NCBI GenBank assembly: GCA_021779835.1
Contig: JAJXZX010000008.1
Location: 1-64,000 of the forward strand
DNA from: Pseudomonadota bacterium
GTDB taxonomy: Bacteria; Pseudomonadota; Alphaproteobacteria; Rhodobacterales; Rhodobacteraceae
Direction of reading: 5' to 3'
Length of the DNA: 64,000 nucleotides
A program made the position numbers and the translations under genes. The notes under the pieces were generated by a model. That model saw only the letters and a list, made by a program, of their open reading frames with translations, was not told the DNA's origin and did no database searches. Shown one piece after another: positions 3,133-62,560 of the stretch (the stretch's first letter is position 1; each line of letters starts with the position of its first letter).

Positions 3133-4674
3133 TCAGTTCTTCGCCGCTTGCGTCTGGGCCGCGGCCCCCGCAACAGCCGTATCGACATGAGAAATCAGCG
3201 CCGTCACCGAGGGCCCGACAATGTCGGTCACAAGGCTCGGGTAGATCCCCAACAACAGCGTCATCGCCACCAACGGTGCGAAGATCAGCCTCTCGCGCAG
3301 GTCCATGTCGGTGATCGCCTTCAGGCTATCCTTGACCAGCGCGCCAAACACCACGCGCCGGTAGAGATAAAGCGCATAGGACGCCGAGAAGATCACGCCC
3401 GACGTCGCAACCGCCGCCACCCAGGTATTGACCTGGAAGGTGCCCATCAGCGTCAGGAACTCGCCGACAAACCCGCTCGTCCCCGGCAGGCCGACGTTCG
3501 CCATGGTGAAAAACATGAAGATCAGCGCGTAAACCGGCATCCGGTTCACCAAGCCACCATAGGCCGCGATGTCGCGCGTGTGCATCCGGTCATAAATCAC
3601 GCCGACGCTGAGGAACAGCGCGCCCGAGACGAAGCCGTGGCTGATCATCTGGAACATCGCGCCATCCAGCCCTTGCTGGTTCATCGCGAAAATCCCCATC
3701 GTCACAAACCCCATGTGGGCAACCGACGAATAGGCGATCAGCTTTTTCATGTCCTCCTGCACCAGCGCCACAAGGCTGGTGTAGACAATCGCGATGGCCG
3801 ACATCCACAACACCAACGGCGTCAGGATATGGCTCGCCACCGGGAACATCGGCAGGCTGAAGCGCAGGAAGCCATAGCCCCCCATCTTCAGCAGGATCGC
3901 CGCCAGCACGACCGAGCCCGCCGTCGGCGCCTCAACGTGCGCATCGGGCAACCAGGTGTGGAACGGCCACATCGGCATTTTCACCGCGAATGACGCGAAG
4001 AACGCCAGGAACAGCATGGTCTGCAAGCCGCCCGCGATCTGCCAGCCAAACAGGTTCAGCGGACCCGCGCTGAACTGGTGCGTCAACAGCGTCGGAATGT
4101 CGGTGGTGCCCGCATCGCGATACATCACCACCATAGCCACCAGCATCAGAACCGATCCAAGGAAGGTATAGAGGAAGAATTTGAACGACGCATAGATGCG
4201 CCGCTTGCCGCCCCAGATGCCGATAATCAGGAACATCGGGATCAGACCTGCCTCGAAGAACAGGTAGAACAGCACCATGTCGAGCGCCACGAACACGCCA
4301 AGCATCAGGCTTTCCAGCACCAGAAACGCGATCATGTATTCCTTGACCCGCATCTCGACGCCCCAGCAGGCAGCGATGGTCAAGGGCATCAACGCGGTGG
4401 TCAACAGCACGAACAGCACCGACAACCCGTCCACGCCGACCTTGTAGTGGAAGCCAAGGATCCACGCATGTTCCTCGACAAACTGGAACCCGGTGTTCTT
4501 CGGATCAAACCCGAACAACAGCGCCAGCGACACCGCGAAGGTGGCGATGGTCGCAATCAACGCAAGCCATTTGGCATTGCGGGCCGAAGCCTCATCATTT
4601 CCACGCAGGAACAGGGCCAATATCGCCGCAGCAACCAGCGGAATAAAGGTGATGATGGAAAGCAGATTGCCCAT
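3133..4674 (-). CDS. nuoM: NADH-quinone oxidoreductase subunit M
   Basis: This is the second antiporter-like subunit of complex I, 513 residues from the ATG at 4674. It has about 14 membrane segments, the E-containing helix around [12 protein letters not shown], the lysine helix in [23 protein letters not shown], and the [22 protein letters not shown] helix shared with NuoL and NuoN. The ATG shares one base with the nuoL stop (TGATG), which points to translational coupling and decides the start over an open frame 10 codons longer. It sits between NuoL and NuoN in the membrane arm. Confidence 0.98.
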
Positions 4675-6683
4675 CAGTGCGCCCCTCCGGTAAGCGTCAT
4701 CCAAGTCATCAGGACACCAATCCCGATCACCATCGCGAAAGCATAGTGGAACAGATAGCCCGACTGGGCACGGCCCGCGAGCCGGGTGAAGAACGGGACA
4801 ATGCCCATCGCAACCCCGTCGATAGTGCCGTCGATCACCTCGCCGTCACCTTTCTTCCAAAGCATACGCCCGACCCAGAACGCGGGCTTCACGAAGATCG
4901 CGTCATAGATCTCGTCGAAATACCATTTGTTCAGCAAGAACAGGTAAAGCGGCCGCTGCGACGCCGCGAAAATCGCGGGCAGCTCGGGCGAGCGGATATA
5001 CATCTTCCACGCCACCGCAAAGCCCAGCACCATCGCGATAAACGGCGACAGGCTGACCCACATCGGGCTTTCATGCGCCATGGCAATCACATGGTTCTGC
5101 GCGCCCATATAGATCGCGCCAGCCCCCGGTGCGGCGCCGTCCTTCAGGCTGAAAAAATGCGCCATCGTCGCTTCGTTGCCGAAGAAAGAGTTGTACCAGA
5201 TCATGCCGCCAAACGTCGCGCCAAGCGCCAGAACCCCCAGCGGGATCAGCATGTTAAGCGGGCTCTCATGCGCGTGGTCATAGGCGTGATGGTCGCCCTT
5301 CGGCTCGCCATAGAACGTCATGAACATCAGCCGCCACGAGTAGAAGCTGGTAAAGGCCGCCGCGATGACCAACAGCCAGAAGGCATACATCGACCCACCG
5401 GCAAAGGTGCTCTCGATGATCGCATCTTTCGACAGGAAGCCGGCAAAGCCAATCGGCAGACCAAACATCTCTTTCGAGAAGGGAATACCAACCCCGGTAA
5501 TCGCCAGCGTCCCGATCATCATCGCCCAGAACGTCAGCGGGATTTTCTTCCGCAAGCCACCATAGTTGCGCATGTCCTGCTCGTGGTGCATCGCCGTGAT
5601 GACCGAGCCCGCACCAAGGAACAGCATGGCCTTGAAGAACGCGTGCGTCAGCAGGTGGAACATTGCGACGCCATAAACGCCCGAGCCTGCGGCGGCGAAC
5701 ATATAGCCCAGCTGCGAACAGGTCGAATAGGCGATCACGCGCTTGATATCGTTTTGCACCAGACCCACGGTCGCGGCAAAGAACGCGGTAGAGGCGCCCA
5801 TCACCAACACCAACTCGCGCGCCGACGGGGCAAATTCATACAAAGGCGACATGCGGCAGATCAAGAACACACCCGCCGTCACCATCGTCGCGGCGTGGAT
5901 CAGCGCCGAAACCGGTGTCGGGCCCTCCATCGCATCCGGCAACCAAGTGTGCAGGAACAACTGCGCCGACTTGCCGGAGGCCCCGATGAACAGCAACACC
6001 CCGATCAGGTTCGCAGCGTTCCACTGCGTCCACAGGAAATGCACGTTCATCTTCGCCAGATCGCCGACATGGGCGAACACGGTGTCAAAGTTGATGCTGT
6101 CGGTCAGGTAGAACAGCGCGAAGATCCCCAAGGCGAAACCAAAGTCACCGACCCGGTTCACCACAAAGGCCTTGATCGCCGCCGCGTTCGCGCTCGGTTT
6201 CTTGTAGTAAAAGCCGATCAGGAGATAGGACGCGACGCCCACGCCCTCCCAGCCAAAGAACATCTGCACCAGATTGTCCGCCGTCACCAGCGCCAGCATG
6301 GTAAAGGTAAAGAACGAGAGGTAAGCGAAGAAGCGCGCACGGTAGGGCTCGTCATCGCCCCAATTCTCGTCATGCGCCATGTATCCCATGGAATACAGAT
6401 GCACGAGCGAGGAAACCGTCGTCACCACGATCAGCATGATCGTGGTCAGTCGGTCCAGCCGGATGCCCCAATAAGTATCAAGGCTGCCCGACGAGATATA
6501 CCGCAGGATCTCGATATGCTTGGTCACGCCATCAAAGCCGATGAACACGACCCAAGACAGCACGCAGGCAAGGAACAGCAACGCGGTCGTCAGCACCTGT
6601 GCCGACCGTTCGCCGATGATCTTCCAGCCAAAGCCACCGATAAGCGCGCCGACCAGCGGCGCAAAAAGGATGATCGGTTCCAT
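4674..6683 (-). CDS. nuoL: NADH-quinone oxidoreductase subunit L
   Basis: This is the distal antiporter-like subunit of complex I (669 residues). It shows the NuoL-specific opening, the [19 protein letters not shown] segment, the [21 protein letters not shown] lysine region and the [20 protein letters not shown] helix. The C-terminal part contains the lateral amphipathic helix and anchor expected of NuoL, ending in a final membrane helix near residues 645-665. It lies six bases after nuoK and shares a base with nuoM. Confidence 0.98.
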
Positions 6684-6689
6684 TGCGCC

Positions 6690-6995
6690 TTACCCCTTCA
6701 TCACGTTGACGTCTTCGACCTCAATCGACCCGCGCGCCCGGAAGAAGCTCACAAGGATCGCAAGGCCAATCGCCGCCTCGGCCGCAGCCACCGTCAGCAC
6801 GAACATGGTGAACACCTGCCCCACCAGATCATGCATGAAGCTGGAGAACGCGACGAAGTTGATGTTCACCGCCAACAGGATCAGCTCCACCGACATCAGG
6901 ATAACGATGACGTTCTTTCGGTTCAGAAAGATCCCGAAAATCCCGATGACGAACAGCACCGCGGCCACCGTCAGATATTGTGCAAGTCCGATCAT
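6690..6995 (-). CDS. nuoK: NADH-quinone oxidoreductase subunit K
   Basis: NuoK is a 101-residue, three-helix membrane subunit (MrpC-like). It carries the two conserved glutamates of the family in [11 protein letters not shown] and [11 protein letters not shown], which form part of the central proton half-channel. The ATG at 6995 gives exactly the family length; the upstream frame extension is non-conserved sequence. The gene is separated from nuoJ by an unusual 80-base spacer that contains a perfect hairpin, whereas most neighbours in this operon overlap. Confidence 0.98.
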
Positions 6996-7041
6996 TTCGT
7001 CCCTCCGGGTCCGCGCCCGATATTTCCGTCTTGTCTTTTGC

Positions 7042-7062
7042 CGCGCCGGATCGCCCGGCGCG
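7042..7062 (-). other. Intercistronic hairpin between nuoJ and nuoK
   Basis: An 8-bp perfect stem (CGCGCCGG / CCGGCGCG) with a 5-base loop lies in the nuoJ-nuoK spacer. On the transcribed strand it is followed by a purine-rich GCAAAAGACAAG stretch, not a U tract. It therefore looks more like an mRNA-stabilising or processing structure than a terminator, since nuoK-N must be expressed. This is an inference from base pairing only. Confidence 0.4.
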
Positions 7063-7075
7063 CATACTCTTTCGC

Positions 7076-7690
7076 CTAGAGGCCCTGCCCCGGCTTCACA
7101 TCGTGCAGCTCCATCGCCGCCGCCGGATCGCGCCACATCTGGTGCAGCACGTTCTGGCGTTTCACCGACTTCCGATGCCGCATCGTCAGCACGATCGCCC
7201 CGATCATCGCGACCAGCAGGATCAGCGCCGAAATCATGAACAGAAACACATACTTGTCATAGAGCAGCAGCCCCAGCGCCTTGGTGTTCTGCACTTGGCC
7301 CAGATCCGGCGTCACCGCCTGCCGCAACCCTTCCGCCGCGTCCGAGGCGTGCCAGACCCCCAGCACCATGAAGAACTGCATCAGCAAGATCACCCCGATC
7401 AGCAGCGCCAGCGGCATATACTTCGACATTTCCGCCTTCAGCTCGGCGAAATCGACGTCCAGCATCATCACCACGAACAGGAACAACACCGCGACCGCGC
7501 CGACATAGACGATAATCAACAGCATCGCCACGAACTCCGCCCCCAGCAGCACGAACAGCCCGGCTGAGGAAAGAAACGCAAGGATCAGCCACAGCACCGA
7601 GTGGACCGGGTTCTTCGCCGTAACGACGAACAATCCCGCGGCCACCGCCACGATGGAAAACATGTAAAATGCAAACGCTGCGACAGTCAT
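7076..7690 (-). CDS. nuoJ: NADH-quinone oxidoreductase subunit J
   Basis: This 204-residue membrane subunit (ND6 homologue) has five helices, including the flexible glycine/valine-rich TM3 seen here as [17 protein letters not shown], the pi-bulge helix that couples quinone reduction to proton pumping. The C-terminal tail is hydrophilic and basic, as in other alphaproteobacteria. Its ATG overlaps the stop of the preceding carboxymuconolactone-decarboxylase-like gene by four bases (ATGA), so the two are translationally coupled. Confidence 0.97.
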
Positions 7691-8097
7691 TCACTGCCCT
7701 CCCCGGTTTCGCCAAAGACGGACTGGGCAATTTCCAGCGCCTTGGTCATGGCGGGCAAACCGCCGAACATGCTCATTTGTGAAATCACTTCCGCGATCTC
7801 CCGTTTTGTCGCGCCCGCCGCCAAAGCATGGCGGATGGTCAGCTTGATCTGCGGCTCGGCCAGTGCGCCCAGCACCACCAGTGCCGCCAGCGTCACCAAC
7901 AGCCGTGTTTTCGCGTCCAGCCCGTCCTTGTTAAAGGTGCGGCCAAACCACATCTCCATCATGTCCTTGGTCATGGTGGGGAACAGCTTGTCCAACCCCT
8001 TCACCTGCATGTTCTCCAATGCGGGGTTGAAGGCATGGACCATCTCCTGGCCCTGCTCCATCATCGCCTTGAACATACCTGTGAAATCAGCGGTCAT
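7687..8097 (-). CDS. Carboxymuconolactone decarboxylase-like protein inside the nuo operon
   Basis: The 136-residue all-helical protein has the AhpD/CMD-type core: [16 protein letters not shown], an R-H-A-L-A-A-G-A-T segment, and an [13 protein letters not shown] helix. It contains no cysteine at all, so it cannot be an AhpD-type CxxC peroxidase, and an enzymatic role is unproven. It overlaps both nuoI and nuoJ by four bases, which places it firmly in the complex I transcription unit. A role in assembly or as a Rhodobacteraceae-specific accessory subunit is possible but only inferred from position. Confidence 0.8.
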
Positions 8098-8600
8098 CTG
8101 TAGGGGGCATCCGTTGCAAGGTTGCGCGCGATCTCGGCTTCCCAGCGGTCGCCGTTGTCCAGCAACTTGGCCTTGTCATAGAAAAGCTCTTCGCGGGTTT
8201 CCGAGGCGAATTCGAAGTTCGGCCCCTCGACGATCGCATCGACCGGGCAGGCTTCCTGACAGAAACCGCAGTAGATGCACTTGGTCATGTCGATGTCATA
8301 GCGCGTGGTGCGGCGGCTGCCGTCATCGCGGGGCTCGGCATCAATCGTGATCGCCTGCGCCGGGCAAATCGCCTCGCACAGCTTACACGCGATGCACCGC
8401 TCCTCGCCCGAGGGATAGCGCCGCAGCGCATGTTCGCCACGGAAGCGGGGCGAAAGCGGCCCCTTCTCGTGCGGATAGTTCAGCGTCGCCTTCGGCGCGA
8501 GGAAGTATTTCATCCCAAGGCCAAAGCCTTTGATGAAGTCCACCATAAAGAAATACTTGATGGCGCGACCGTAATCGATCTTTCGTGTCATCCCCATCAT
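8094..8600 (-). CDS. nuoI: NADH-quinone oxidoreductase subunit I
   Basis: NuoI carries iron-sulfur clusters N6a and N6b in the peripheral arm of complex I. Both 4Fe-4S ferredoxin motifs are intact: [12 protein letters not shown] and [12 protein letters not shown]. The ATG at 8600 shares a base with the nuoH stop (TGATG); alternative ATGs lie at 8597 and 8591, and a GGGGG run just upstream fits the first two best. The N-terminal amphipathic part ([18 protein letters not shown]) contacts the membrane arm. Product length is about 168 residues, normal for alphaproteobacteria. Confidence 0.97.
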
Positions 8601-9640
8601 CAGCCCCCGATCATCGCCCAGCGTGCCCAAAGCCCGCCAAGCACTGCATATTTCGCCAAGAACGATACGATCACCACCCAGCCAAGGCTCAACGGCAGGA
8701 ACACTTTCCAGCCCACGCGCATCAGTTGGTCATAGCGGTAGCGCGGCACGATTGCCTTCACCATGGCGAACATGAAGAAGAAGAACGCCATCTTGCCAAC
8801 CATCCACAGCGCGCCATCCGGCACGCCCGGAATCGGCGACAGCCAGCCGCCAAAGAACAGCAGGGTGATCAGCGCGCACATCAGGAAGATTGCGATATAC
8901 TCGCCCGCCATGAACAGCAGATAGGGGGTAGAGGAATATTCAACCATGAAGCCCGCAACCAGTTCCGACTCTGCCTCGGGCAGGTCGAACGGCGGGCGGT
9001 TGGTTTCCGCCAGCGCGCTGACAAAGAACAGCACCACCATCGGCAGATGCGGCAGCCAATACCAGTTGAACAGTCCGAACCGCCCCGATTGCGCATGAAC
9101 AATGTCGCCGAAGTTCATCGAACCGGTCGAGATGATGATGCCAATGATGATCAGCCCCAGCGACACCTCGTAAGAAATCATCTGCGCCGCCGACCGCAAA
9201 GACCCAAGGAACGGGTATTTGGAGTTCGAGGCCCAGCCGCCCATGATGACGCCGTAAACCTCAAGGCTCGACACCGCGAACACGAACAGCACCGCCACGT
9301 TTATATCCGACAACACCCAGGTGTGGGTGAACGGAATTACCGCCCAGGCCAGCACCGCCAGCACGAAGCTCAGCATGGGGGCGAGGAAGAACACCGCCTT
9401 GTCGGCACCCGCAGGCACCACGATTTCCTTCACCACATATTTCAGCGCATCCGCCACCGATTGCAGCAACCCGAAGGCGCCGACCACGTTGGGCCCCCTG
9501 CGCATCTGGACCGCAGCCCAGATCTTGCGGTCGCCGTAAACCAGGAACAGCAGCGAGATCATCACAAAGGCGATGATTCCCAGCCCCTGCAGCAAGATCA
9601 GCAGCGTTGTACCCAGGCCCGTTTGCAGAAAGTCAGCCAT
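8600..9640 (-). CDS. nuoH: NADH-quinone oxidoreductase subunit H
   Basis: NuoH (ND1 homologue, 346 residues) forms the quinone-access chamber. It has eight or more membrane helices, the RRGPNVVG loop near residue 47 that contacts the peripheral arm, and the acidic loop with the [20 protein letters not shown] signature of the quinone/proton pathway. The stop shares a base with the nuoI start. Upstream of its ATG lies a short spacer occupied mostly by a 14-bp tandem repeat. Confidence 0.98.
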
Positions 9641-9656
9641 GTTGCCTTATCCTCAG

Positions 9657-9699
9657 ATCGCCCGTTCTCATATCGCCCATCTCAAATCGCCCGTCTCAT
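9657..9699 (-). repeat. Three-copy tandem repeat of about 14 bp
   Basis: Three head-to-tail copies of a unit close to ATCGCCCRTCTCAT (15, 14 and 14 bases) fill the spacer between the lipoprotein gene and nuoH. On the transcribed strand each unit begins TGAGA, and the first copy includes the TGA stop of the lipoprotein gene. The copies differ at only one or two positions, so they look like a recent slippage expansion. The array stops about 15 bases before the nuoH start codon, where a GGATAAGG sequence could serve as ribosome-binding site. Confidence 0.75.
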
Positions 9700-10190
9700 A
9701 TGGTCGGTATTCCCTGCGCCCCGCAATCGCGCACCGTCACTTCGGCGTCGATTGTCAGAAGCCCGTCGGGCAGTGCGGACGAGATGGTGTAAACCGCATC
9801 TCCGCGCCAGATGCCACCCTCTTCCGCCACATTCGTCCTCACATGTCGCGCAAATCCGTATCCGCGGATCAACGCATACTGCGCCGCAGCACAAGCCGCA
9901 TAGGCGCCCACGTCCGCCTTCGACCGCGCGCCCTTCATCGACACGACGAAATCCACCAGATCACCCTCCAGCAGCACCGTTTTGATGCCCAGATAGACGG
10001 GATGAAAATCCGCCGATTTGCGCGGCACGGTAGAGTTTGAAACTCCCTGCCCGGCCGCCATCGCCTGCTTCGTCTGCGCCGTCATCGCCTTTTGCAGCTC
10101 CGCCTGCGGGTCCGTCGGCTGCTCGCACGCCCCCAACAGCGCAAGCGCGCTGAGGGTCAGAGCCAGCCGGGGCAGACGCGGTTGCATCAT
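9696..10190 (-). CDS. Putative lipoprotein of unknown function in the nuo operon
   Basis: The 164-residue product begins with a basic stretch, a hydrophobic core and a good lipobox, LLGAC, with Cys22 as the predicted lipidation site. The mature part has a short Pro/Gln-rich linker and then a compact domain with an ACAAAQYALIRGYG helix and later strands. I do not recognise a named family. It lies between nuoG and nuoH, four bases after the nuoG stop, so it should be made together with complex I. The predicted periplasmic membrane-anchored location puts it on the opposite side of the membrane from the NuoG module. Confidence 0.8.
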   Translation of the reverse strand: MMQPRLPRLALTLSALALLGACEQPTDPQAELQKAMTAQTKQAMAAGQGVSNSTVPRKSADFHPVYLGIKTVLLEGDLVDFVVSMKGARSKADVGAYAACAAAQYALIRGYGFARHVRTNVAEEGGIWRGDAVYTISSALPDGLLTIDAEVTVRDCGAQGIPTI

Positions 10191-10193
10191 CTG

Positions 10194-12215
10194 TTACTCC
10201 GCCGCCATCTTGGGCGCACGCCGTTCGGCCTGCATCTTCGACAGTTCCGCCATCAGGTTCGACGCCCGCGCAATCGGGTTGGTCAGGTAGAAGTCCTTGA
10301 CCGCATTGCGAAAATCCGCCTTGCCCGCCGCGCGCACCGCCAAGGGAGCCCACGGGTTTTCGGCCACCACGTCAATCGCGCCCAGATGCGGCACCGCCTG
10401 CACCAGCGAGCGGCGCAACTGCGCAAGGCTGTCCCAGCCCTGCACCCGGCCCAGCTCTGCCGACAGCGCCCGGATGATCGCCCAGTTCTCTTTCGCCTCG
10501 CCCGGCGCAAAGCCCGCGCGCAGCGCCAGTTGCGGCCGCCCCTCTGTGTTCACGAACAACCCCGATTCCTCGGTATAGGCCGCGCCCGGCAACACCACAT
10601 CGGCGCGATGCGCCCCGCGGTCGCCGTGGCTGCCCTGATAGACCACAAACGCGCCCGCAGCGATCTCGACCTCATCGGCGCCAAGGTTATAGACCACCTC
10701 GGCCCCCTCCAGCGCCGCAACCATGCCACCCTCGGTCACTGCACCCACGTCCATCGCGCCAACCCGCGCGGCGGCGGTGTGCAGCACCAGAAGTTTCGCC
10801 TTGCGCGCCTCAGCGATCTTCATCGCATAGGCCAACACGGCCTCGCCGTCGGCCTCGTTGAGTGCACCCTGACCAATGATCACGACGCCCGGCTTGGCAT
10901 CCGGCGCTGCCTCTTCGGCCAGCTTCAGATGCGCCGCGAGCGCCGCGCGGTCGGTGCCCAAGTGGTGATACTCATAGGTCAAATCGACAGCCGCACCGAT
11001 CAGCCCGACCTCAGCCCCCGCCAACCACGCTTTACGGATGCGCGCATTCAGCACCGGCGCTTCGTCGCGCGGATTGGTGCCGATCAGCAGGATGCCACCG
11101 GCGGCATCAATATCCTCGATTTTTGCGGTGCCGACGTAGGCAGAGCGGTTCCCTGCGGGCAACTTCGCGCCATCCACACGGCATTCCACCGTGCCGCCCA
11201 TCGACTCGATCAGCATCTTCAGCGCGTAGGCCGCCTCGACCGGCACCAGATCACCAATCAGACCGGCAACCTTTTTGCCCTTCATCGCCGCAGCGACCGC
11301 CTTCAGCGCCTCATCCCAGCCCGCTTTGCGCAGACGTCCGTTCTCGCGTATATACGGCGTGTCCAACCGCTGCCGCCACAGGCCGTCCCAGACAAAGCGC
11401 GTCTTGTCGGAAATCCATTCCTCGTTCACGCCATCATGGTTGCGCGGCAGGATGCGCATCACTTCGCGCCCCTTCGCATCGACCCGGATGTTCGACCCAA
11501 GCGCGTCCATCACGTCAATCGTCTCGGTCTTGGTCAGCTCCCAAGGCCGCGCCGTGAACGCATAGGGCTTGGAAGTCAGCGCCCCCACCGGGCACAGATC
11601 AATGATGTTGCCCTGCAGGTTGCTGTCCAACGTCTGGTTCAGATAGCTGGTGATCTCGGCATCCTCGCCGCGGCCCGTCTGGCCCATCTGCGTGATCCCG
11701 GCTACCTCGGACGTGAACCGCACACAGCGCGTGCAGGAAATGCAGCGCGTCATCGCGGTCGCAACCAGCGGCCCCAGATCCAGATTGTCGCTCGACCGTT
11801 TCGCCTCGCGGAAGCGGCTGAAGTCCACGCCGTAAGCCATTGCCTGATCTTGCAAATCACACTCGCCACCCTGATCGCAGATCGGGCAGTCGAGCGGATG
11901 GTTGATCAGCAGAAACTCCATCACGCCTTCGCGCGCCTTCTTCACCATCGGGCTGTTGGTCTTGACCACCGGCGGCTCGCCATTCGGGCCGGGGCGCAAA
12001 TCGCGCACCTGCATCGCGCAGGATGCCGTCGGCTTCGGCGGCCCGCCGACAACCTCAACCAGACACATGCGGCAGTTGCCCGCGATCGTCAGCCGCTCGT
12101 GATAGCAAAAGCGCGGGATTTCCACCCCGGCCTGCTCACAAGCCTGGATCAGCGTCAGCGCCGGATCGACCTCGATCACAATGCCATCAATCGAGATTTT
12201 CTTCAGATCAGCCAT
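10194..12215 (-). CDS. nuoG: NADH-quinone oxidoreductase subunit G
   Basis: This 673-residue subunit of the NADH-oxidising module carries clusters N1b, N4 and N5. The N-terminal 2Fe-2S ferredoxin domain has cysteines at about 37, 48, 51 and 66. The His-containing N5 motif is [17 protein letters not shown]. The [10 protein letters not shown] pair and a later CPVGAL form the N4 set. The rest is a degenerate molybdopterin-oxidoreductase-like domain without a cofactor, as usual for mitochondrial-type complex I. The length matches Rhodobacter and Paracoccus NuoG (Nqo3). Confidence 0.98.
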
Positions 12216-12372
12216 GTCTCATCTTCCTTTGCCGCAAGCCGTAATCCGCCCCCCGAGCCCCAAGGCCCGACGGGCGCGCCGTTACCGCCGCCTGTTCTCT
12301 CTTCACCAGAGCCCCGCGCCGCTGCGCCGCGATCCCCCGCATCATCTCACCCAAGGCCGCGCCCATCCGCAT
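12208..12372 (-). CDS. Possible 54-residue basic protein (weak candidate)
   Basis: An ATG at 12372, four bases after the stop of the DUF3291 gene, opens a 54-codon frame that ends eight bases inside the start of nuoG. This tight spacing is what one expects of a real operon gene. The product is Arg- and Ala-rich, with an [21 protein letters not shown] helix and no recognisable domain. The spacer of about 160 bases is otherwise unusually long for this operon. There is no clear ribosome-binding site, and GC-rich DNA gives chance frames, so confidence is low. Confidence 0.25.
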
Positions 12373-12376
12373 CGCC

Positions 12377-12877
12377 CTACTCCGCCGCCATCGCATTACA
12401 CGAGCGGCGCTGCCACAGCTTCGCTTCCGCCAGATAGCTCCAGCCGAACGCCGCGTCGCTGTCGCCGTTGGCGCGCAACAGCTCCAGCCGTTCCAGCCCT
12501 TCGTCCAGCGTGGGCTGGTGTCCGACCGGCACCCACCACATCACGAAATGCATTTTGCCCAGCACCTCGAACCACTCTGCCCGGCGCTCGTAAAACGCGC
12601 GATGCACGGTGTTCCACACGAACTCTTCCAGCGTCGCGACGCTTTCCCAAACCGTCAGGTTCGACACATACTGCGCATCGCCACCAATCTTCGCCTCGGT
12701 ATTCCCGGTTCCCGGTTCGCCCGAGCCTTCCATCATCCACACAAACCCCGGCATCCGTTTGCCAAGGCCATTGATGCGGTCGAGCGCCCCCATGAAATCG
12801 GCAACGCGCGGATCATCGGTCGGCGCAAGCAGCCGCCCCACGTTCAGCTCTGCCAAGTGATGCGTGGCAGGCGTCAT
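12377..12877 (-). CDS. DUF3291 family protein
   Basis: The 166-residue product has the DUF3291 pattern: an HLAELNVGRL opening, a central SNLTVWESVATLEEFVW segment and a W-W-V-P-V-G-H-Q-P-T motif, consistent with the dimeric alpha-beta barrel (ABM-like) fold of this family. The biochemical function of DUF3291 is unknown. Here it is embedded in the nuo operon between nuoF and nuoG, downstream of a 52-residue membrane protein. Family identification is from the aromatic-rich motifs; any role with complex I is inferred from position only. Confidence 0.8.
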   Translation of the reverse strand: MTPATHHLAELNVGRLLAPTDDPRVADFMGALDRINGLGKRMPGFVWMMEGSGEPGTGNTEAKIGGDAQYVSNLTVWESVATLEEFVWNTVHRAFYERRAEWFEVLGKMHFVMWWVPVGHQPTLDEGLERLELLRANGDSDAAFGWSYLAEAKLWQRRSCNAMAAE

Positions 12878-50690: not shown

Positions 50691-51959
50691 TCAGGCTCGC
50701 ACCGCACCAGCCGAGGCGCCCTGCCGCAAAGATTGCGCCAGCGGCGCGCGCTTCAACACCACCGCAACCATGACGATCAGCGCGAGATAGCCGAACGCCG
50801 CAAACGACAGCACCTCTCTGGTGTCCACCAAAATCACGTCATCCGCCCCGCGCGGCAGGGACATCAAGCGCAACAACCCCCAGCCAGAGCTGAGCCAGGC
50901 CAGCACCAGCATCGCCAGCTTTTCAAATCCCCGCGCCCGCACCAGCACGTCGGGCAACAAAAGCGCGGCGGCAATGCCAAAGATGGTCATATCGTAGTCA
51001 TAGCAATAGGGGCTGACCACCAGCGTCGCCAACACCGCAACGCCCAAAGCGCGCCGCAGGTCGCGCCCGCTGAGGGCAATATAGACCACCACGGCGCAGG
51101 CCAGCACTGCGCTGGCAAACTGCACCGAAAGCGCGCCCTTTGCGGGAAGGCCAAGGGTAAACAGCGCGGCGTAGATCGAGGTCATGCGGAAATACGGATA
51201 CCCCCCGGAGGCTAGAAGACCGCCCGCCTCTTTGATCGCGCCAAGGAACGCGCCCCAGATGGCGATGCCAAATGCCCATGTTGAAAGCAGCGACGTCACA
51301 CCCACCACCAGCGCCGCAATCGCAAGCAGCGACCAGCGCCGGGAGGCAAGGCTCAGCACGCTCAACCCGATGGCCAGATGCGGCTTGATCACCATCAAGC
51401 CCAGCGGCACCCCGGCAACCCGTCGCCCGCTCAGAAATGCAAGGCAGAACAACCCGATCAGCGTGCCGGTAAACAGCCCGTTCTGCCCGCACAGGACCGC
51501 CACCCAAATCGCCGGCGCGGTCAGGGCAAGCGCTTCGGTAAAGACTTTGCCCGCCACGCGGCGCAATACCAGAAGGTAGGAAAGCAGGGTGCCGCCGACA
51601 AAAGCCGTATAGGCCAAGCCCTTCGGCACCATCGCGAAGGCCGCGACAAAGGCATCAAACTGCGGTGGATAGGTCCAGGGCATGACAGAGTTCGCGTTGG
51701 TCAGCGCAACCTGCGTGGCCCACATGGTTTTCAGCACATAGGCATCGTTCAGCATGCCGGACCAATACATGCGCCCGACCAGATAGAAGTCATCGAAATC
51801 GGTATAGCCGCCTTGGTTTTCCCGCCAAATCGGACCGGAAAAGTGCGAAATACGCCAGACGAGCAGCATCACGCTCAGCACGATGATACCCACCGCGACA
51901 CCCATGCGGCCGGCCCCCGGCGCCATTTGGATGAACCCTTTGCCGCCCGCGTCGCTCAC
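50691..51959 (-). CDS. GT87 / DUF2029 family membrane glycosyltransferase (GT-C fold)
   Basis: The 422-residue integral membrane protein has about ten helices. A first periplasmic loop carries the acidic cluster YTDFDDFYLVG (about residues 52-62), the position of the catalytic Asp in GT-C enzymes such as PimE. The later YPPQFDAFVA and YCYDYDM motifs are typical of DUF2029. GT87 enzymes use polyprenyl-phosphate sugars as donors. The GTG at 51959 overlaps the stop of the DprE2-like gene, and the cluster upstream could make polyprenyl-phosphate arabinose, so this is the most likely user of that donor. An ATG at 51926 is an alternative start. Confidence 0.82.
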   Translation of the reverse strand: MSDAGGKGFIQMAPGAGRMGVAVGIIVLSVMLLVWRISHFSGPIWRENQGGYTDFDDFYLVGRMYWSGMLNDAYVLKTMWATQVALTNANSVMPWTYPPQFDAFVAAFAMVPKGLAYTAFVGGTLLSYLLVLRRVAGKVFTEALALTAPAIWVAVLCGQNGLFTGTLIGLFCLAFLSGRRVAGVPLGLMVIKPHLAIGLSVLSLASRRWSLLAIAALVVGVTSLLSTWAFGIAIWGAFLGAIKEAGGLLASGGYPYFRMTSIYAALFTLGLPAKGALSVQFASAVLACAVVVYIALSGRDLRRALGVAVLATLVVSPYCYDYDMTIFGIAAALLLPDVLVRARGFEKLAMLVLAWLSSGWGLLRLMSLPRGADDVILVDTREVLSFAAFGYLALIVMVAVVLKRAPLAQSLRQGASAGAVRA

Positions 51960-56872: not shown

Positions 56873-57118
56873 TTAACCGCCCTGCATATACGGCATCAAC
56901 ACGACCTCACTATCCGGCTTGATCGGCGCAAACCACGCCTCGCGATAGACCCGCCCGTCCAGCGCCATCGAGACGCCGCGCGCGATTTGCGGGCGAAGGC
57001 CAGGATAGGCCTCCGCCAGCCGGTCCAGCACCTCTTTAAAGGTGCTGGCCTCCACTTCAACCTCGGCGCGGCCATCGGCAAAGCTGCGTAAGCTTCCCCA
57101 AAGCAACACCTTCACCAC
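56873..57118 (-). CDS. MoaD/ThiS family sulfur-carrier-like protein
   Basis: The 81-residue protein has the ubiquitin-like beta-grasp pattern (MVKVLLWGSLRSF, a helix with LDRLAEAYPGLR, and the late strands SEVVLMPYMQGG) and ends in Gly-Gly, the site of adenylation and thiocarboxylation. Neither moaE nor thiG is nearby. It follows the large hydroxylase subunit by three bases with a GTG start, so it is made with that enzyme. A dedicated sulfur donor for its molybdopterin cofactor is a natural but unproven idea. Confidence 0.82.
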   Translation of the reverse strand: MVKVLLWGSLRSFADGRAEVEVEASTFKEVLDRLAEAYPGLRPQIARGVSMALDGRVYREAWFAPIKPDSEVVLMPYMQGG

Positions 57119-57121
57119 CGC

Positions 57122-59365
57122 TTAGCCCCGCGCCATGATCGCCTTCAGCACGCGCGGTGGCGACATCGGCAACTCGCTCATCCGCACGCCCGTGGCACGC
57201 GACACGCCGTTCGAAATCGCGGCAAGCGGCGGCACGATCGGCGTTTCACCAACGCCCCGCACGCCGTACGGATGGCCCGGATTCGGGATCTCCAAAATCA
57301 CCGTGTCGATCATCGGTAGGTCAGAGGCGACCGGCACGCGGTAATCAAGGAAGCCCGCGTTCTGCAACCGTCCATCGGCGCCGTAGATATATTCCTCGTT
57401 CAGCGCCCAGCCGATGCCCTGCACGGCACCGCCCTGCATCTGCCCCTCGACATAGGCCGGATGCACCGCTTTGCCGGCATCCTGGAACACCGTATAGCGC
57501 AGGATCTTGGTGGCCCCGGTTTCCTTATCTACTTCCAGATCAACAAGATGCACGCCAAAGCTCACACCGGCTCCGTCCGCGTTGAACTCATGGTGGCCCG
57601 CAATCGGACCGCCGGTCTGGAACGACACGGCGGCGATTTCCGCCAAACTCATCGGCGGGAATTTCCCCGCATTCGGCCCAGCAGGCACCGCAGCGCCATC
57701 GATCCACTCGACCGCCTCTTCGTCGATGCCCCAAATCTTTGCCGCCCGGCCGCACATCTTCCTGATCGCGTCCTGCGCCGCCTTGATGGTGGCAAGACCG
57801 ACCGAGAACGTCACCCGGCTGCCATCCGTCACATCGTTGTGGCCCAGCGAGGCGGTGTCGGCGATGATGGTGCGGATACGGTCGTAAGGTATTCCCAACT
57901 CCTCCGCCGCCATCAGGCTGATCGAGGCGCGAGAGCCGCCAATATCCGGGTTGCCCTCAGTCACGCCCACGGTGCCATCGGTGTTCACGTTCAGGCTTAC
58001 GCAGGTGTTGCCGCCAAAGTTGAACCAGAAGCCGCAGGACAGACCGCGCGCCTGCCCGGCACCCAACGGCGCGTGGTAATGCGGATGCGCCTTCGCGGCC
58101 TCCAGCGTCGCCACCAGCCCGATATCGTCGAACACCGGGCCATAAGACGACTGCGTCCCCTTGCGCGCCGCGTTCAGCAGGCGCACGTCCAGCGGGTCGA
58201 GCTTCAGCACCTGACACAGTTCATCCACCACGCTTTCCACCGCGTAGATCGCCTGCGGCGCGCCCGGCGCGCGATAGGCGGCCTCTTTCGGGCGGTTGGT
58301 CAGCGCGTTCCAGCCATAGGTCCGCACGGCGGGCAAGTCATAGGCGGCAAAACCCGCCATCGCGCCCATATCCACTGTGCCGCACGGGAAAGCCCCGCCG
58401 GAATAGCGCATATGCGCCTCTGCCGCCGTGATGCGACCGTCCTTGGTCATGCCGATCTTCACGTCGATCGAGGTTGACACCGTCGGCCCCGTCGCCTTGA
58501 ACACCTCGTCACGCGTCATCACCACCTTCACTGGCCGCCCCGCCTTTTTCGACAAGGCGAGCGCCACCGGCTCGATAAACACCGTGGTCTTGCCACCAAA
58601 ACCGCCGCCGATCTCGGACGCGGTGACGCGCAGCTGGCTCGCCTCCATCCCCATTATCGAGGCGCAGAGCGAACGCACGTTGAATTGCCCCTGCGTGCAG
58701 CACCACAGGTCCGCCTTCCCGTCAGAGGTCATCGAGGCCAGACAGGCGTGCGGTTCGATATAGCCCTGATGCGTCGCGGCGGTCTTGAAGCTGCGCGAAA
58801 CGATCTTGTCGGCCTTGGCAAAGCCCGCCGCTACGTCGCCATGCCCAAACTCGCAGTGATGCGTGACGTTTTCCGAGAACCCCTTCGGCACGTTCTCGAC
58901 CGCGCGGCTCGCCTGCACCACTGGCGAACCAGCCTTCATCGCGGCATCCACGTCGGTCACATGCGGCAGCACTTCATAGATCACCTTGATCGCCTTCAGC
59001 GCCGCCTTCGCCACCGCGGCAGAGGTTGCAGCCACCGCCGCCACCGCGTGCCCGTCATACAGCGCCTTGCCATCCGCCATGCAGTTCACCTGCACATCGC
59101 GGGTGGACGCATCCTCGACCACCGCGAAATCCCGCGACGTGATAACCGCTTTCACCCCCTGCATCGCCTCGGCGGCAGAGGTGTCAATCGACACGATCCG
59201 CGCATGCGCGTGCGGAGAGCGCAAAATCCGCCCCACCAACATCCCCGGCGCGCTGACGTCCGCACCATAAAGCGCGCGCCCCGTGACCTTATCCACCCCA
59301 TCGGGCCGCGCAGGCCGCGTGCCGACCACCTTGAATACGCGTTTACCGTTTGAATCCAAAGCCAT
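57122..59365 (-). CDS. Molybdenum hydroxylase large subunit (xanthine dehydrogenase family)
   Basis: The 747-residue molybdopterin-binding subunit has the family motifs GGGFGGK at 253-259, EPHA at 204-207 and AYRAPGAPQ. The catalytic glutamate is in the C-terminal VRGVGETP. The active-site loop is not the AYRCSFR of form I CO dehydrogenase, so CO oxidation is unlikely; hydroxylation of a heteroaromatic or aldehyde is expected. The ATG at 59365 has GAGGAG eight bases upstream. It is the third gene of the operon, followed by the MoaD-like protein. Confidence 0.95.
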   Translation of the reverse strand: MALDSNGKRVFKVVGTRPARPDGVDKVTGRALYGADVSAPGMLVGRILRSPHAHARIVSIDTSAAEAMQGVKAVITSRDFAVVEDASTRDVQVNCMADGKALYDGHAVAAVAATSAAVAKAALKAIKVIYEVLPHVTDVDAAMKAGSPVVQASRAVENVPKGFSENVTHHCEFGHGDVAAGFAKADKIVSRSFKTAATHQGYIEPHACLASMTSDGKADLWCCTQGQFNVRSLCASIMGMEASQLRVTASEIGGGFGGKTTVFIEPVALALSKKAGRPVKVVMTRDEVFKATGPTVSTSIDVKIGMTKDGRITAAEAHMRYSGGAFPCGTVDMGAMAGFAAYDLPAVRTYGWNALTNRPKEAAYRAPGAPQAIYAVESVVDELCQVLKLDPLDVRLLNAARKGTQSSYGPVFDDIGLVATLEAAKAHPHYHAPLGAGQARGLSCGFWFNFGGNTCVSLNVNTDGTVGVTEGNPDIGGSRASISLMAAEELGIPYDRIRTIIADTASLGHNDVTDGSRVTFSVGLATIKAAQDAIRKMCGRAAKIWGIDEEAVEWIDGAAVPAGPNAGKFPPMSLAEIAAVSFQTGGPIAGHHEFNADGAGVSFGVHLVDLEVDKETGATKILRYTVFQDAGKAVHPAYVEGQMQGGAVQGIGWALNEEYIYGADGRLQNAGFLDYRVPVASDLPMIDTVILEIPNPGHPYGVRGVGETPIVPPLAAISNGVSRATGVRMSELPMSPPRVLKAIMARG

Positions 59366-59366
59366 A

Positions 59367-59843
59367 TCAAGCACTCCTCATCTGGGCGGCGGCATCCTGC
59401 ACGGCACGAACGATCTTGTCATAGCCGGTGCAGCGGCACAGGTTCCCCGCCAGCCAAAAGCGCACTTCTTCATCCGTCGGGTCCGGGTTCTTCGCCAACA
59501 GCGCCTTGGCCGCGACCAGGATCCCCGGCGTGCAAACCCCGCATTGCAAGGCGGCATGGTCGATAAACGCCTGCTGCAACGGATGCAGCGTTTCGGCCTC
59601 TGCCATCCCCTCGACGGTAGAAATCTCGGCCCCCTCGGCCTCGACGCCCAGCACCAGGCACGAACACACCAGCCGCCCGTCAACCAGCACCGAACAGGCG
59701 CCACAATCGCCGGTGCCGCAGCCCTCTTTGACCCCGGTCAGGCCCAGCCGGTTGCGCAGCACATCCAGCAACGGCTCATCGGGCGCACAGACGAACTCTA
59801 CGGGGTCGCCGTTGATGCTTGTGGTAACGTGAATATTGCTCAT
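59367..59843 (-). CDS. Molybdenum hydroxylase 2Fe-2S subunit
   Basis: The 158-residue subunit carries both 2Fe-2S clusters. The plant-type set is C42, C47, C50 and C62 (GCGTGDCGAC...), and the C-terminal helical set is C101, C104, C136 and C138 (CGVCTPG and CRCTGY). It passes electrons from the molybdenum site to FAD. It overlaps the FAD-subunit gene by four bases and ends one base before the large-subunit start codon. Confidence 0.96.
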   Translation of the reverse strand: MSNIHVTTSINGDPVEFVCAPDEPLLDVLRNRLGLTGVKEGCGTGDCGACSVLVDGRLVCSCLVLGVEAEGAEISTVEGMAEAETLHPLQQAFIDHAALQCGVCTPGILVAAKALLAKNPDPTDEEVRFWLAGNLCRCTGYDKIVRAVQDAAAQMRSA

Positions 59844-60703
59844 GCCTGACCTCCGGCGCGCGTATAGGCGATGCGGGCGGCGCGTTTGGCCAGCACGCCC
59901 GCGATATGGGTGCGGAACTCAATGGTGCCGCGTTTGTCATCAATCGGGGCGCAGGCCGCAGAACAGGCCGCAGACAGCGCGTCCAGCGCCGCCTCGTCCA
60001 GCCGCGTGCCGACCAGTGCCGCACCCGCCGCCTCGACCAGCCGCACCGTCGGCGCCACCGCGCCAAGCGCCACGCGCGCCGCCGTCACCATGCCCACCCC
60101 GTCCAGCTCCAGACTGACCGCAGCCGACGCCACCGCAATGTCCATCTCGGTGCGCGGGATAAAGCGCAGATAGGCATCCGACGCGCGATCGGGCCGCGCG
60201 GGCACGAAAATCGACGCGATAAATTCGCCCTTTTTCAGCGAGGTCTTGCCCGGCCCAACCGGCACATCCGACACCGCCACGTCGCGCACGCCGTCCGGCC
60301 CTATGACGCGCGCAACCGCGCCCGCCGCCACCAGCGCCGGCACCGAATCCGCGGCGGGCGACGCGTTGCACAAATTCCCCGCCTGCGTGCAGCGCCCCTG
60401 CACCTGGGTGGAACCGATCAGCTCCGCCCCCTCGACAACCCCCGGCCACAGCGCCTTCAATCCAGCATGTTCGCCCAGTTCGGCCCCCGCGACGCAGGCG
60501 CCGATGCGATAGCCGCCCGCCTCTGCCACGATCTCGCGTATGCCGGGCAAGCCCTTGATATCAACCACCAAGGCAGGCTCTACCATGCCCGCCTTCATCT
60601 GGACCAACACATCGGTGCCGCCCGCCAGAATTCGGGTCACGCCCGCCTCGTCTTTCAGAAGCCGTGCGGCCTCTGCTACCGTCTTGGGTTTCGCGTATTG
60701 CAT
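59840..60703 (-). CDS. Molybdenum hydroxylase FAD-binding subunit
   Basis: The 287-residue subunit has the FAD motifs LAGGTDVLVQMK at 26-37 and the second loop QAGNLCNASPAADS near residues 111-124, then the CO-dehydrogenase-type C-terminal domain. It is the first gene of the operon. Between the two FAD motifs the sequence is typical of the medium chain of xanthine dehydrogenase-type three-subunit enzymes. The order medium-small-large matches nicotine, quinoline or CO-dehydrogenase-like operons. Confidence 0.95.
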   Translation of the reverse strand: MQYAKPKTVAEAARLLKDEAGVTRILAGGTDVLVQMKAGMVEPALVVDIKGLPGIREIVAEAGGYRIGACVAGAELGEHAGLKALWPGVVEGAELIGSTQVQGRCTQAGNLCNASPAADSVPALVAAGAVARVIGPDGVRDVAVSDVPVGPGKTSLKKGEFIASIFVPARPDRASDAYLRFIPRTEMDIAVASAAVSLELDGVGMVTAARVALGAVAPTVRLVEAAGAALVGTRLDEAALDALSAACSAACAPIDDKRGTIEFRTHIAGVLAKRAARIAYTRAGGQA

Positions 60704-60721
60704 GAAAGATTGTCCACCGTG

Positions 60722-60750
60722 GTTAGGGCGTCATTTGTCTGTCTGGTCAA
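60722..60750 (-). promoter_or_regulatory. Predicted promoter of the molybdenum hydroxylase operon
   Basis: On the minus strand TTGACC (60745-60750) and CCTAAC (60722-60727) are 17 bases apart, putting the transcript start about ten bases before the ATG at 60703. The -35 is good and the -10 poor, suggesting an activated or repressible promoter. The very short leader leaves little room for a ribosome-binding site. Confidence 0.4.
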
Positions 60751-60841
60751 ACTGTAACGTTTGCCGCGCCGGGTCCGCAACGCCCAACACGACACTTCGC
60801 TACACCATCGCGTCGAATTCACTCCACAGTCCGTCCAAATG

Positions 60842-60872
60842 AAAACCGCCACCGGAGCGTATCCGGTGGCGG
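60842..60872 (-). terminator. Rho-independent terminator of the cytochrome-porin gene
   Basis: CCGCCACCGGA (60846-60856) pairs perfectly with TCCGGTGGCGG (60862-60872) around loop GCGTA, 27 bases after the stop at 60900. On the minus strand the stem is followed by TTTTCATTT. The 11-bp stem and the T-run make this a convincing terminator. Confidence 0.88.
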
Positions 60873-60899
60873 CAGGGTCGCAGGGTTCAGATCGTCAGA

Positions 60900-62318
60900 T
60901 CAGAAAGCAAAGACCGTGTAGAGGAACAGGTAGTCGTTGTCAGAGGCGTTATGGCCTGCCCCGTCAAAGTTCGTGGTGCCCCCGCCAAGCGACAGGAAGT
61001 GGGTATATTTCGCCCCGATCTTCATGTTGCCCATCGGGTCAAACTTCGGCCCGCCATCCATCCACGGCGAATAGTTGACCTCCAAAGACACCGACTGGCT
61101 GTTGGGCGAGTTGGTGGCCGAGCTTCCGCTATAAAGCCCCGCGTCTTTCGACCCGGACACGTTAGAGAAGGCCCCGATCACCGCCCATGTCGGTTTGTAG
61201 TAGGTCACCGAAAGGTCCAGCGCGTTCAGGGTGTTGCTGGCATTGGACGCCCCACTGATTGGCGCAGCGCCGCTCGTGGTCTGCCACTCCATGATATCGC
61301 GCGCCTTGAACATCAGGCCGAAGTTTTTGCCTGAATAGTCGTATTGCGAGTCGATACCGAAGTCGACGTAGTGGTCCTTGCCAGTTCCCGCCGAGGTGTC
61401 CCACGGCGTCAGGTTGGCAACCATCGCCATCGCCCCGACCATCAGGGTGCTCTTCTTGCTCAGATCCTTGCTATAGGCGATCCGCGCATAGGGCGCGATG
61501 CCCTGCACCTTGAAGCTGCCGCTCGCGTTTGGCACACCAAGCGCCGCCGCCGTGTGATCGGGCAGGCCGGTATAGCCGCCGAACTCGGTGTAAAGCCCGT
61601 TGCCGAACATCGAGTAGCCGGTCAGACCCAGCACCTCTTGCCCCAACGTCCCCTGCAACAGCGTGCCGACCGGGCCGGACTGCGGACCCACCGCCGAGTC
61701 AAAGGCCGGATAGCCCCATGCCGGCGACGTCGCCCAAAGATCCTGCACCGTCGGGTTGTTGTTCAGGCTGAAGCCATAGGTCGCATCCTGCCCGAACAGC
61801 TTGCCGGTGTCGGCATAGCGAATGTCCATGTTGTCCCATGCCCAGCTATGCGCGTTCGGGTCGTAGGTCACCTGAACGAAGGCCCCCATATTGCCGGTAA
61901 TCCGCCCGGCATATAGCAGGCTCACCTGATCGATCGAGGTGATGTCATTCGTCTTGGTCGAATAGGCCAACGGCGGCGCATCCTGCGCTTTCGCTGTATG
62001 GGTGAACCCACCAATAACCAGCGCCGTCACCGGCAAAGCGGGCGCGCCATCAGCTTTCTGCACATAGCCATTCAGCTTGAAATTGCGCCCGAATGCCGTC
62101 AACTCTGGAATTGACGTGTGGCACATCGAGCAAGCAAACCCGGTCTGGCGTGCATAGCTCGGCACAGCCTGTGCGGGTGTGATCGAGGCGGCCAAGCCCA
62201 GTGCCCCGACGGCCAGCGGCGCCAAACCGCGTAGCGCCGCATCGGCAAACCCGGACAAAAGCCCCCTGCTTTCAATGATCTGGCCCGGAGCCGTCCCGGA
62301 CCGCGAATTGGGAGTCAT
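60900..62318 (-). CDS. Monohaem cytochrome-porin fusion (Cyc2-like outer-membrane protein)
   Basis: The 472-residue precursor has a signal peptide with a long N-region, cleaved after AQA at residue 51. The mature protein opens PSYARQTGFACSMCHTS, with one c-type haem motif (C63-x2-C66-H67), followed by PELTAFGRNFKLNGY. The remaining 380 residues alternate polar and aromatic residues like a beta-barrel and end in phenylalanine, the outer-membrane assembly signal. This order, the ARQTG...CxxCH...FGRxFK...GY pattern and the length fit Cyc2-type iron oxidases and their relatives. No other cysteine is present. An SD (GGAGGG) precedes the ATG. Confidence 0.85.
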   Translation of the reverse strand: MTPNSRSGTAPGQIIESRGLLSGFADAALRGLAPLAVGALGLAASITPAQAVPSYARQTGFACSMCHTSIPELTAFGRNFKLNGYVQKADGAPALPVTALVIGGFTHTAKAQDAPPLAYSTKTNDITSIDQVSLLYAGRITGNMGAFVQVTYDPNAHSWAWDNMDIRYADTGKLFGQDATYGFSLNNNPTVQDLWATSPAWGYPAFDSAVGPQSGPVGTLLQGTLGQEVLGLTGYSMFGNGLYTEFGGYTGLPDHTAAALGVPNASGSFKVQGIAPYARIAYSKDLSKKSTLMVGAMAMVANLTPWDTSAGTGKDHYVDFGIDSQYDYSGKNFGLMFKARDIMEWQTTSGAAPISGASNASNTLNALDLSVTYYKPTWAVIGAFSNVSGSKDAGLYSGSSATNSPNSQSVSLEVNYSPWMDGGPKFDPMGNMKIGAKYTHFLSLGGGTTNFDGAGHNASDNDYLFLYTVFAF

Positions 62319-62429
62319 ACCTATCCCTCCATGGTAGTTGAGGTGTACCGACCGGCCAAGGCGCCTAAAAAGACTCCCCACCCGAGGCACTCACGCTCGC
62401 CTATTGCCGCTGGAATCGCGGCCTAAACT

Positions 62430-62443
62430 TTGACTTGAATCAA
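62430..62443. promoter_or_regulatory. FNR/FnrL-like binding site
   Basis: TTGACTTGAATCAA matches TTGAT-N4-ATCAA at nine of ten fixed positions. It lies 112 bases upstream of the cytochrome-porin ATG. If it acts from -41.5, transcription would begin near 62395, with a poor -10 (around CAATAG on the minus strand), as usual at activator-dependent promoters. By chance about one such site is expected in 64 kb, so its intergenic location is the main support. Confidence 0.5.
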
Positions 62444-62560
62444 ATCGGCACACGACTTCGGCATTCCACGGCATACGCGTCATTAATATCACATACCTCG
62501 CCATCTCATTTTGTGATTTTCAAATAATTCTGCCCTGCTCCATTCAAATTAATTTCTGAA

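Follow-up and report, generated by a model that had tools for sequence, protein, structure and literature searches.

It is an open question whether the many Cyc2 homologues outside the known iron oxidisers also oxidise iron (PMC8406198); should they do so, microbial iron oxidation would be much more widespread than is now recognised. The question arises at a gene within a 64,000-nucleotide stretch of a Rhodobacteraceae genome (hereafter the window), in which an earlier note, made from the sequence alone, had seen a Cyc2-like cytochrome-porin. A Rhodobacteraceae carrier of a duplicated cyc2 may be an unrecognised iron oxidiser, and the family includes genetically tractable models. The unusual host, the duplication and a regulatory signal upstream of the gene make this Cyc2 testable.

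A Cyc2-type gene and its product

The gene, identified as that of a fused monohaem cytochrome-porin by its reading frame, homologues, structural model and place in a tree, lies on the minus strand (60900..62318). The ATG is at 62318, the stop codon ends at 60900 and the product has 472 residues. A Shine-Dalgarno-like GGAGGG (62325..62330, minus strand) stands 6 nt before the ATG, and an intrinsic terminator with a 12-bp stem, a 5-nt loop and a T-rich tail lies just past the stop (60845..60873, minus strand), as the earlier note had it. Upstream is a divergent FMN flavoenzyme gene and downstream a xanthine-dehydrogenase-like operon. The open reading frame is not a chance one, since coding periodicity is present in its frame, at least 584 homologous loci were found, and certain residues of the product stay unchanged in all 81 proteins of an alignment.

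A putative signal peptide occupies residues 1-50 (62169..62318, minus strand), as judged from an AQA site (...TPAQA, followed by V) and a hydrophobic helix predicted by AlphaFold2 at residues 20-44. After this hydrophobic N-terminus, the stretch AVPSYARQTGFACSMCHTSIPEL...FGRNFKLNGY holds the sole CxxCH haem c attachment site of the protein (residues 63-67; 62118..62132, minus strand), in the very context first written for it. In an alignment of the window protein with homologues from 80 loci of named genomes, C63, C66, H67, R57 and K81 are invariant (81/81), and all phylogenetic neighbours keep the CxxCH. Besides H67 no His or Met is conserved in this alignment, by which the sixth haem ligand would be neither a conserved His nor a conserved Met.

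Residues 97-471 (60906..62030, minus strand) are predicted to form a 16-strand beta-barrel. The AlphaFold2 model built on the 81-protein alignment (pLDDT 88.5, pTM 0.83) has 16 long strands, from 97-108 to 463-471. Foldseek against the PDB returned outer-membrane barrels first, mostly general porins, and with VIA-align 295-300 residues align with OmpC, OmpF and PorB at Z 21-22 (OmpC 21.7), as far as the C-terminal residue; the matched porins are 16-stranded. The earlier reading of a barrel ending in Phe is thus borne out, the chain closing with ...LYTVFAF (Phe 472). Charged and Tyr residues invariant on the strands (R167, R279, D319, D323, E344, Y243, Y249 and Y277) are candidates for the lining of the pore, assuming that they point inward. 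Neither the protein nor its profile drew informative matches from Pfam, NCBIfam or the PDB sequences. The porin fold alone is uninformative on electron transfer; the haem domain is the informative part.

Family membership and cluster

The protein adds a new member to a family already known, the Cyc2 cytochrome-porins. By the description of Keffer et al., a Cyc2 has a signal peptide, a single CXXCH preceded by AXPXFAR[Q/K][T/Y] and followed by PXL, a 16-strand barrel fused to it and at least 365 aa in all (PMC8406198). In the window protein the single CXXCH occupies residues 63-67, PXL follows 4 residues later (CHTSIPEL), the C-terminal barrel is present in the model (16-strand porins at Z about 21) and the length is 472 aa. 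The upstream element is found if read leniently, as AVPSYARQT, with Tyr for the first Phe, one conservative substitution; the second copy described below has Phe at that place (AVPSFARQT). The Cyc2 architecture seen in the earlier note therefore stands, with one conservative change in the published signature. Neither outcome that the note had named as telling against it occurred: the structure prediction does give a barrel, and the neighbours in the tree are proteins that keep the CxxCH.

At least 584 relatives were found in the genome collection. The best 80 of these, complete or almost complete in length and 34-59% identical, occur in hosts that include Hyphomicrobiales, Thiomonas, Zoogloea, Azoarcus, Nitrosospira and Verrucomicrobia, among others. 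In a tree of 127 rows, built by a quick method with SH-aLRT support, the window protein falls among full-length Cyc2 homologues that keep the CxxCH, forming with them, Thiomonas included, one cluster (support 98); branches between clusters are long. Two further Cyc2 types, ARQTGAACLSCHF... and ARKYGMACSSCHT..., fall outside it. Both come from one large family of the same phylum, which we take to be Zetaproteobacteria, and Zetaproteobacteria are reported to have Cyc2 of Clusters 1 and 3 (PMC7029218). Thiomonas Cyc2 has been assigned to Cluster 2 (PMC12285272), and two Thiomonas genomes that were checked each gave exactly one match, both in the cluster of the window protein. Given these published assignments, the grouping with Thiomonas, apart from the two types taken as zetaproteobacterial, makes Cluster 2 the likely address of the protein, with Thiomonas as landmark in a tree without the chromosomal Acidithiobacillus ferrooxidans Cyc2.

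With Cluster 2 (A. ferrooxidans, Ferrovum, Thiomonas; PMC7029218, PMC8406198, PMC12285272) the protein shares a signal-peptide-like N-terminus, one CxxCH in AXPXFAR[QK][TY], PXL and the fused 16-strand barrel, as well as full-length similarity of 36-40% to the Thiomonas homologues and an A. ferrooxidans plasmid protein. It differs in its rhodobacterial host, in its two copies, in the FNR-type box upstream, in the lack of adjoining cytochrome or cox genes and in the change of the signature Phe to Tyr. Cluster 1 (Mariprofundus ferrooxydans PV-1, Gallionellaceae, Chlorobium) has the same haem-domain signature. Proteins taken to be of this type match the N-terminal 130 residues of the window protein at about 1e-14, whereas the barrel is unmatched in the same search and the tree places them in a separate clade (100). 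The likeness to PioAB, MtoAB and MtrAB is one of principle, electron transfer across the outer membrane by way of a barrel. Those systems use a separate decahaem cytochrome and a 26-strand barrel, while the window protein has one fused haem and 16 strands; no multihaem gene was found among the genes neighbouring the window cyc2.

Duplication, distribution and origin

The earlier note had the gene standing alone in the window. This is so, but the genome holds a second cyc2, 86% identical, on another contig (G000:C50:15009-16436). The duplicated segment is 1.93 kb long by DNA comparison (window 60583..62495; G000:C50:14692-16613). The shared block takes in the regulatory region, the gene and the terminator, and also some 120 bp from the start of the adjoining flavoprotein gene, which is truncated on C50. 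Gene and control region were thus copied together as one segment. Between the copies dS is 0.42 and dN 0.087 (dN/dS 0.21), values that point to a duplication neither recent nor decaying, under purifying selection. C50 carries a transposase-like open reading frame, to which Pfam gave no name, and is possibly a plasmid or island.

Carriers of cyc2 were found in 2 of 394 sampled Rhodobacteraceae genera, and within the genus of the window 4 of 7 genomes have the gene. This rarity in the family suggests gene transfer. The rhodobacterial clade (100) is nested in a set of 20 rows (99) that is otherwise alphaproteobacterial, largely Hyphomicrobiales, which fits acquisition from the Hyphomicrobiales-rich alphaproteobacterial side, if the direction is read correctly. 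On an A. ferrooxidans plasmid (CP084173, 5890-8186) and on the plasmid NC_009469 (Acidiphilium cryptum) there are Cyc2 homologues with identical match statistics (36.6%); the one on CP084173 lies between a transposase and a c-type cytochrome. This is a sign of plasmid-borne spread.

An FNR/FixK-type box upstream of cyc2

An FNR/FixK-type palindrome, TTGATTCAAGTCAA, lies 112 nt upstream of the ATG (62430..62443, minus strand). Each of the six rhodobacterial genes, namely the window gene, its second copy, those of three genus mates and that of Defluviimonas, has the box upstream. The pattern TTGAY-N4-RTCAA has 2 sites in the window against 0.21 expected, the other exact one being at 51385-51398. 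Among the relatives, 87 non-redundant upstream regions hold 22 sites (0.66/kb), compared with 20 in 1.25 Mb taken from elsewhere in these loci (0.016/kb), an enrichment of about 40-fold; control patterns with wrong spacers of 3 or 5 bases gave 0 sites upstream. Loci with the box upstream of cyc2 include L033, L044, L058, L065 and L079. Since presence and absence of the box need at least 16 changes on the tree, its position upstream of cyc2 is no single accident passed on by descent.

The window genome as a whole has 36 occurrences of the pattern and 4 of its reversed control. Two of the 36 precede the second COX1-family oxidase gene, which we take to be ccoN, and a box also lies between the gene of a c550-like protein and ctaD. 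FixK control is known for the iron-oxidation operon pioABC of Rhodopseudomonas (PMC3050613). For cyc2, a limited literature search found no report of FNR-type control; the two papers found there in which Cyc2, FNR and iron oxidation come together mean something else by FNR. Regulation of the FNR/FixK type may recur in this branch of Cyc2 and have gone unreported so far. The box makes a simple prediction, induction at low oxygen that is lost in an fnrL mutant, and promoters offer a means of telling respiratory Cyc2 proteins from others.

Candidate partners and oxidases

Relatives of the window gene are commonly accompanied by cytochrome genes. Of 75 relatives, 40 have a same-strand open reading frame with one or two haem motifs whose start lies no more than 1 kb downstream; among control stretches the figure is 3 of 230 (1.3%). 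On a Caballeronia plasmid the cyc2 relative is flanked by genes for a HiPIP and a c-type cytochrome. The window cyc2 has no neighbouring cytochrome or HiPIP gene. The Defluviimonas orthologue adjoins a monohaem cytochrome gene, and a homologue of that partner, 51% identical and c550-like, is encoded in the window genome between ctaD and what we take to be a lipB-like gene. The search of the genome for a periplasmic partner that the earlier note had proposed thus yields none adjoining the gene and one candidate, the c550-like protein encoded next to ctaD. An aa3-type oxidase is present in the genome and, by our reading, a cbb3-type oxidase as well.

RuBisCO is present in the window genome. A general link of cyc2 with carbon fixation was considered and rejected, as the three other cyc2 carriers of the genus are without RuBisCO; cyc2 is therefore not a marker of autotrophy.

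Proposed function and alternatives

The reading that we favour, and hold to be moderately probable, is Fe(II) oxidation in the pore of Cyc2, induced at low oxygen, with electrons passing to a periplasmic cytochrome c. A Crp/FNR-type regulator would switch cyc2 on under microoxic conditions; at neutral pH, Fe(II) lasts longer when oxygen is low. The N-terminal monohaem c domain would sit at or in the periplasmic mouth of the 16-strand barrel. A dissolved reduced metal, most likely Fe(II), would enter the pore, the haem would oxidise it by taking its electron, and the electron would go on to a soluble periplasmic cytochrome c and from there to the cbb3 or aa3 oxidase. In its favour stand the Cyc2 signature, the predicted 16-strand barrel, the invariant haem residues and K81, the place in the tree, the cytochromes c beside relatives and the c550-like homologue beside ctaD, the FNR-type boxes upstream of cyc2 and of the presumed ccoN, the low dN/dS between the copies and the FixK precedent of pioABC. 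Counted against this mechanism are the lack of an adjoining cytochrome or HiPIP gene, the genus mates without RuBisCO, and the hosts of the relatives, most of which are not known to be iron oxidisers. For distant Cyc2 homologues, notably much of Clusters 2 and 3, function is described as uncertain (Keffer et al., PMC8406198). More tentatively, we can picture a rhodobacterial lineage that gained cyc2, duplicated it and put it in an FNR regulon together with a terminal oxidase, leading to a possible facultative Fe(II) oxidation at low oxygen with RuBisCO present, under an FNR/FixK control perhaps recurrent in the branch.

The same protein could serve another physiology, as an electron outlet or with another donor (Mn(II), reduced organics, an electrode, humics), for redox balance at low oxygen and not for growth on iron. 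FNR-type control suits anaerobic electron disposal, many hosts of the relatives have no known iron oxidation, and the carriers of the genus other than that of the window have no RuBisCO. A related Cyc2 isoform of Acidithiobacillus has moreover been assigned to ferric iron reduction (PMC10715153). On the other hand, the literature has tests of three Cyc2 proteins, one from each cluster, and all of them oxidise Fe(II) (PMC8406198). The partners found beside the relatives, c-type cytochromes and HiPIPs, are moreover those of oxidation chains; we regard such a role as rather unlikely.

A use in detoxification or sensing, for example oxidation of Fe(II) or another metal at the surface as a defence against Fenton damage, with no energy gain, could account for two genus mates in which cyc2 stands beside a two-component system and an RcnB-like gene, and for the heavy-metal P-type ATPase, MerR-like regulator and two-component system on the contig of the second copy. 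The metal-resistance genes of C50 need not relate functionally to cyc2, however; the most telling neighbours common to the relatives are cytochromes c, and the FNR-type box suggests respiratory use, so that this explanation is quite improbable. That Foldseek and VIA-align rank general porins first might suggest an ordinary porin whose haem motif is accidental or vestigial, a very remote prospect when the CxxCH and much of the nearby signature are invariant in 81 of 81 relatives and there are relatives with adjoining cytochromes c. Fe(II) oxidation coupled to a periplasmic cytochrome c remains the preferred reading.

Genes surrounding cyc2 loci

Additional observations concern the regions around the cyc2 genes. 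In the window, 56873-60703 (minus strand) holds a three-subunit molybdoenzyme operon resembling xanthine dehydrogenase or 4-hydroxybenzoyl-CoA reductase, adjoined by genes for a small ThiS/MoaD-like protein and a GntR regulator. On C50, the region 4408-12494 (locus L116) encodes a heavy-metal P-type ATPase with an HMA domain, a MerR-like regulator, MFS genes and an OmpR-type two-component system. Within 3-4 kb around cyc2 in two genus mates (L119 and L120), an RcnB-like gene comes before cyc2, and an OmpR-type regulator and a sensor kinase with a 2CSK_N domain follow it. Kinases like these occur in about 19 of the cyc2 loci.
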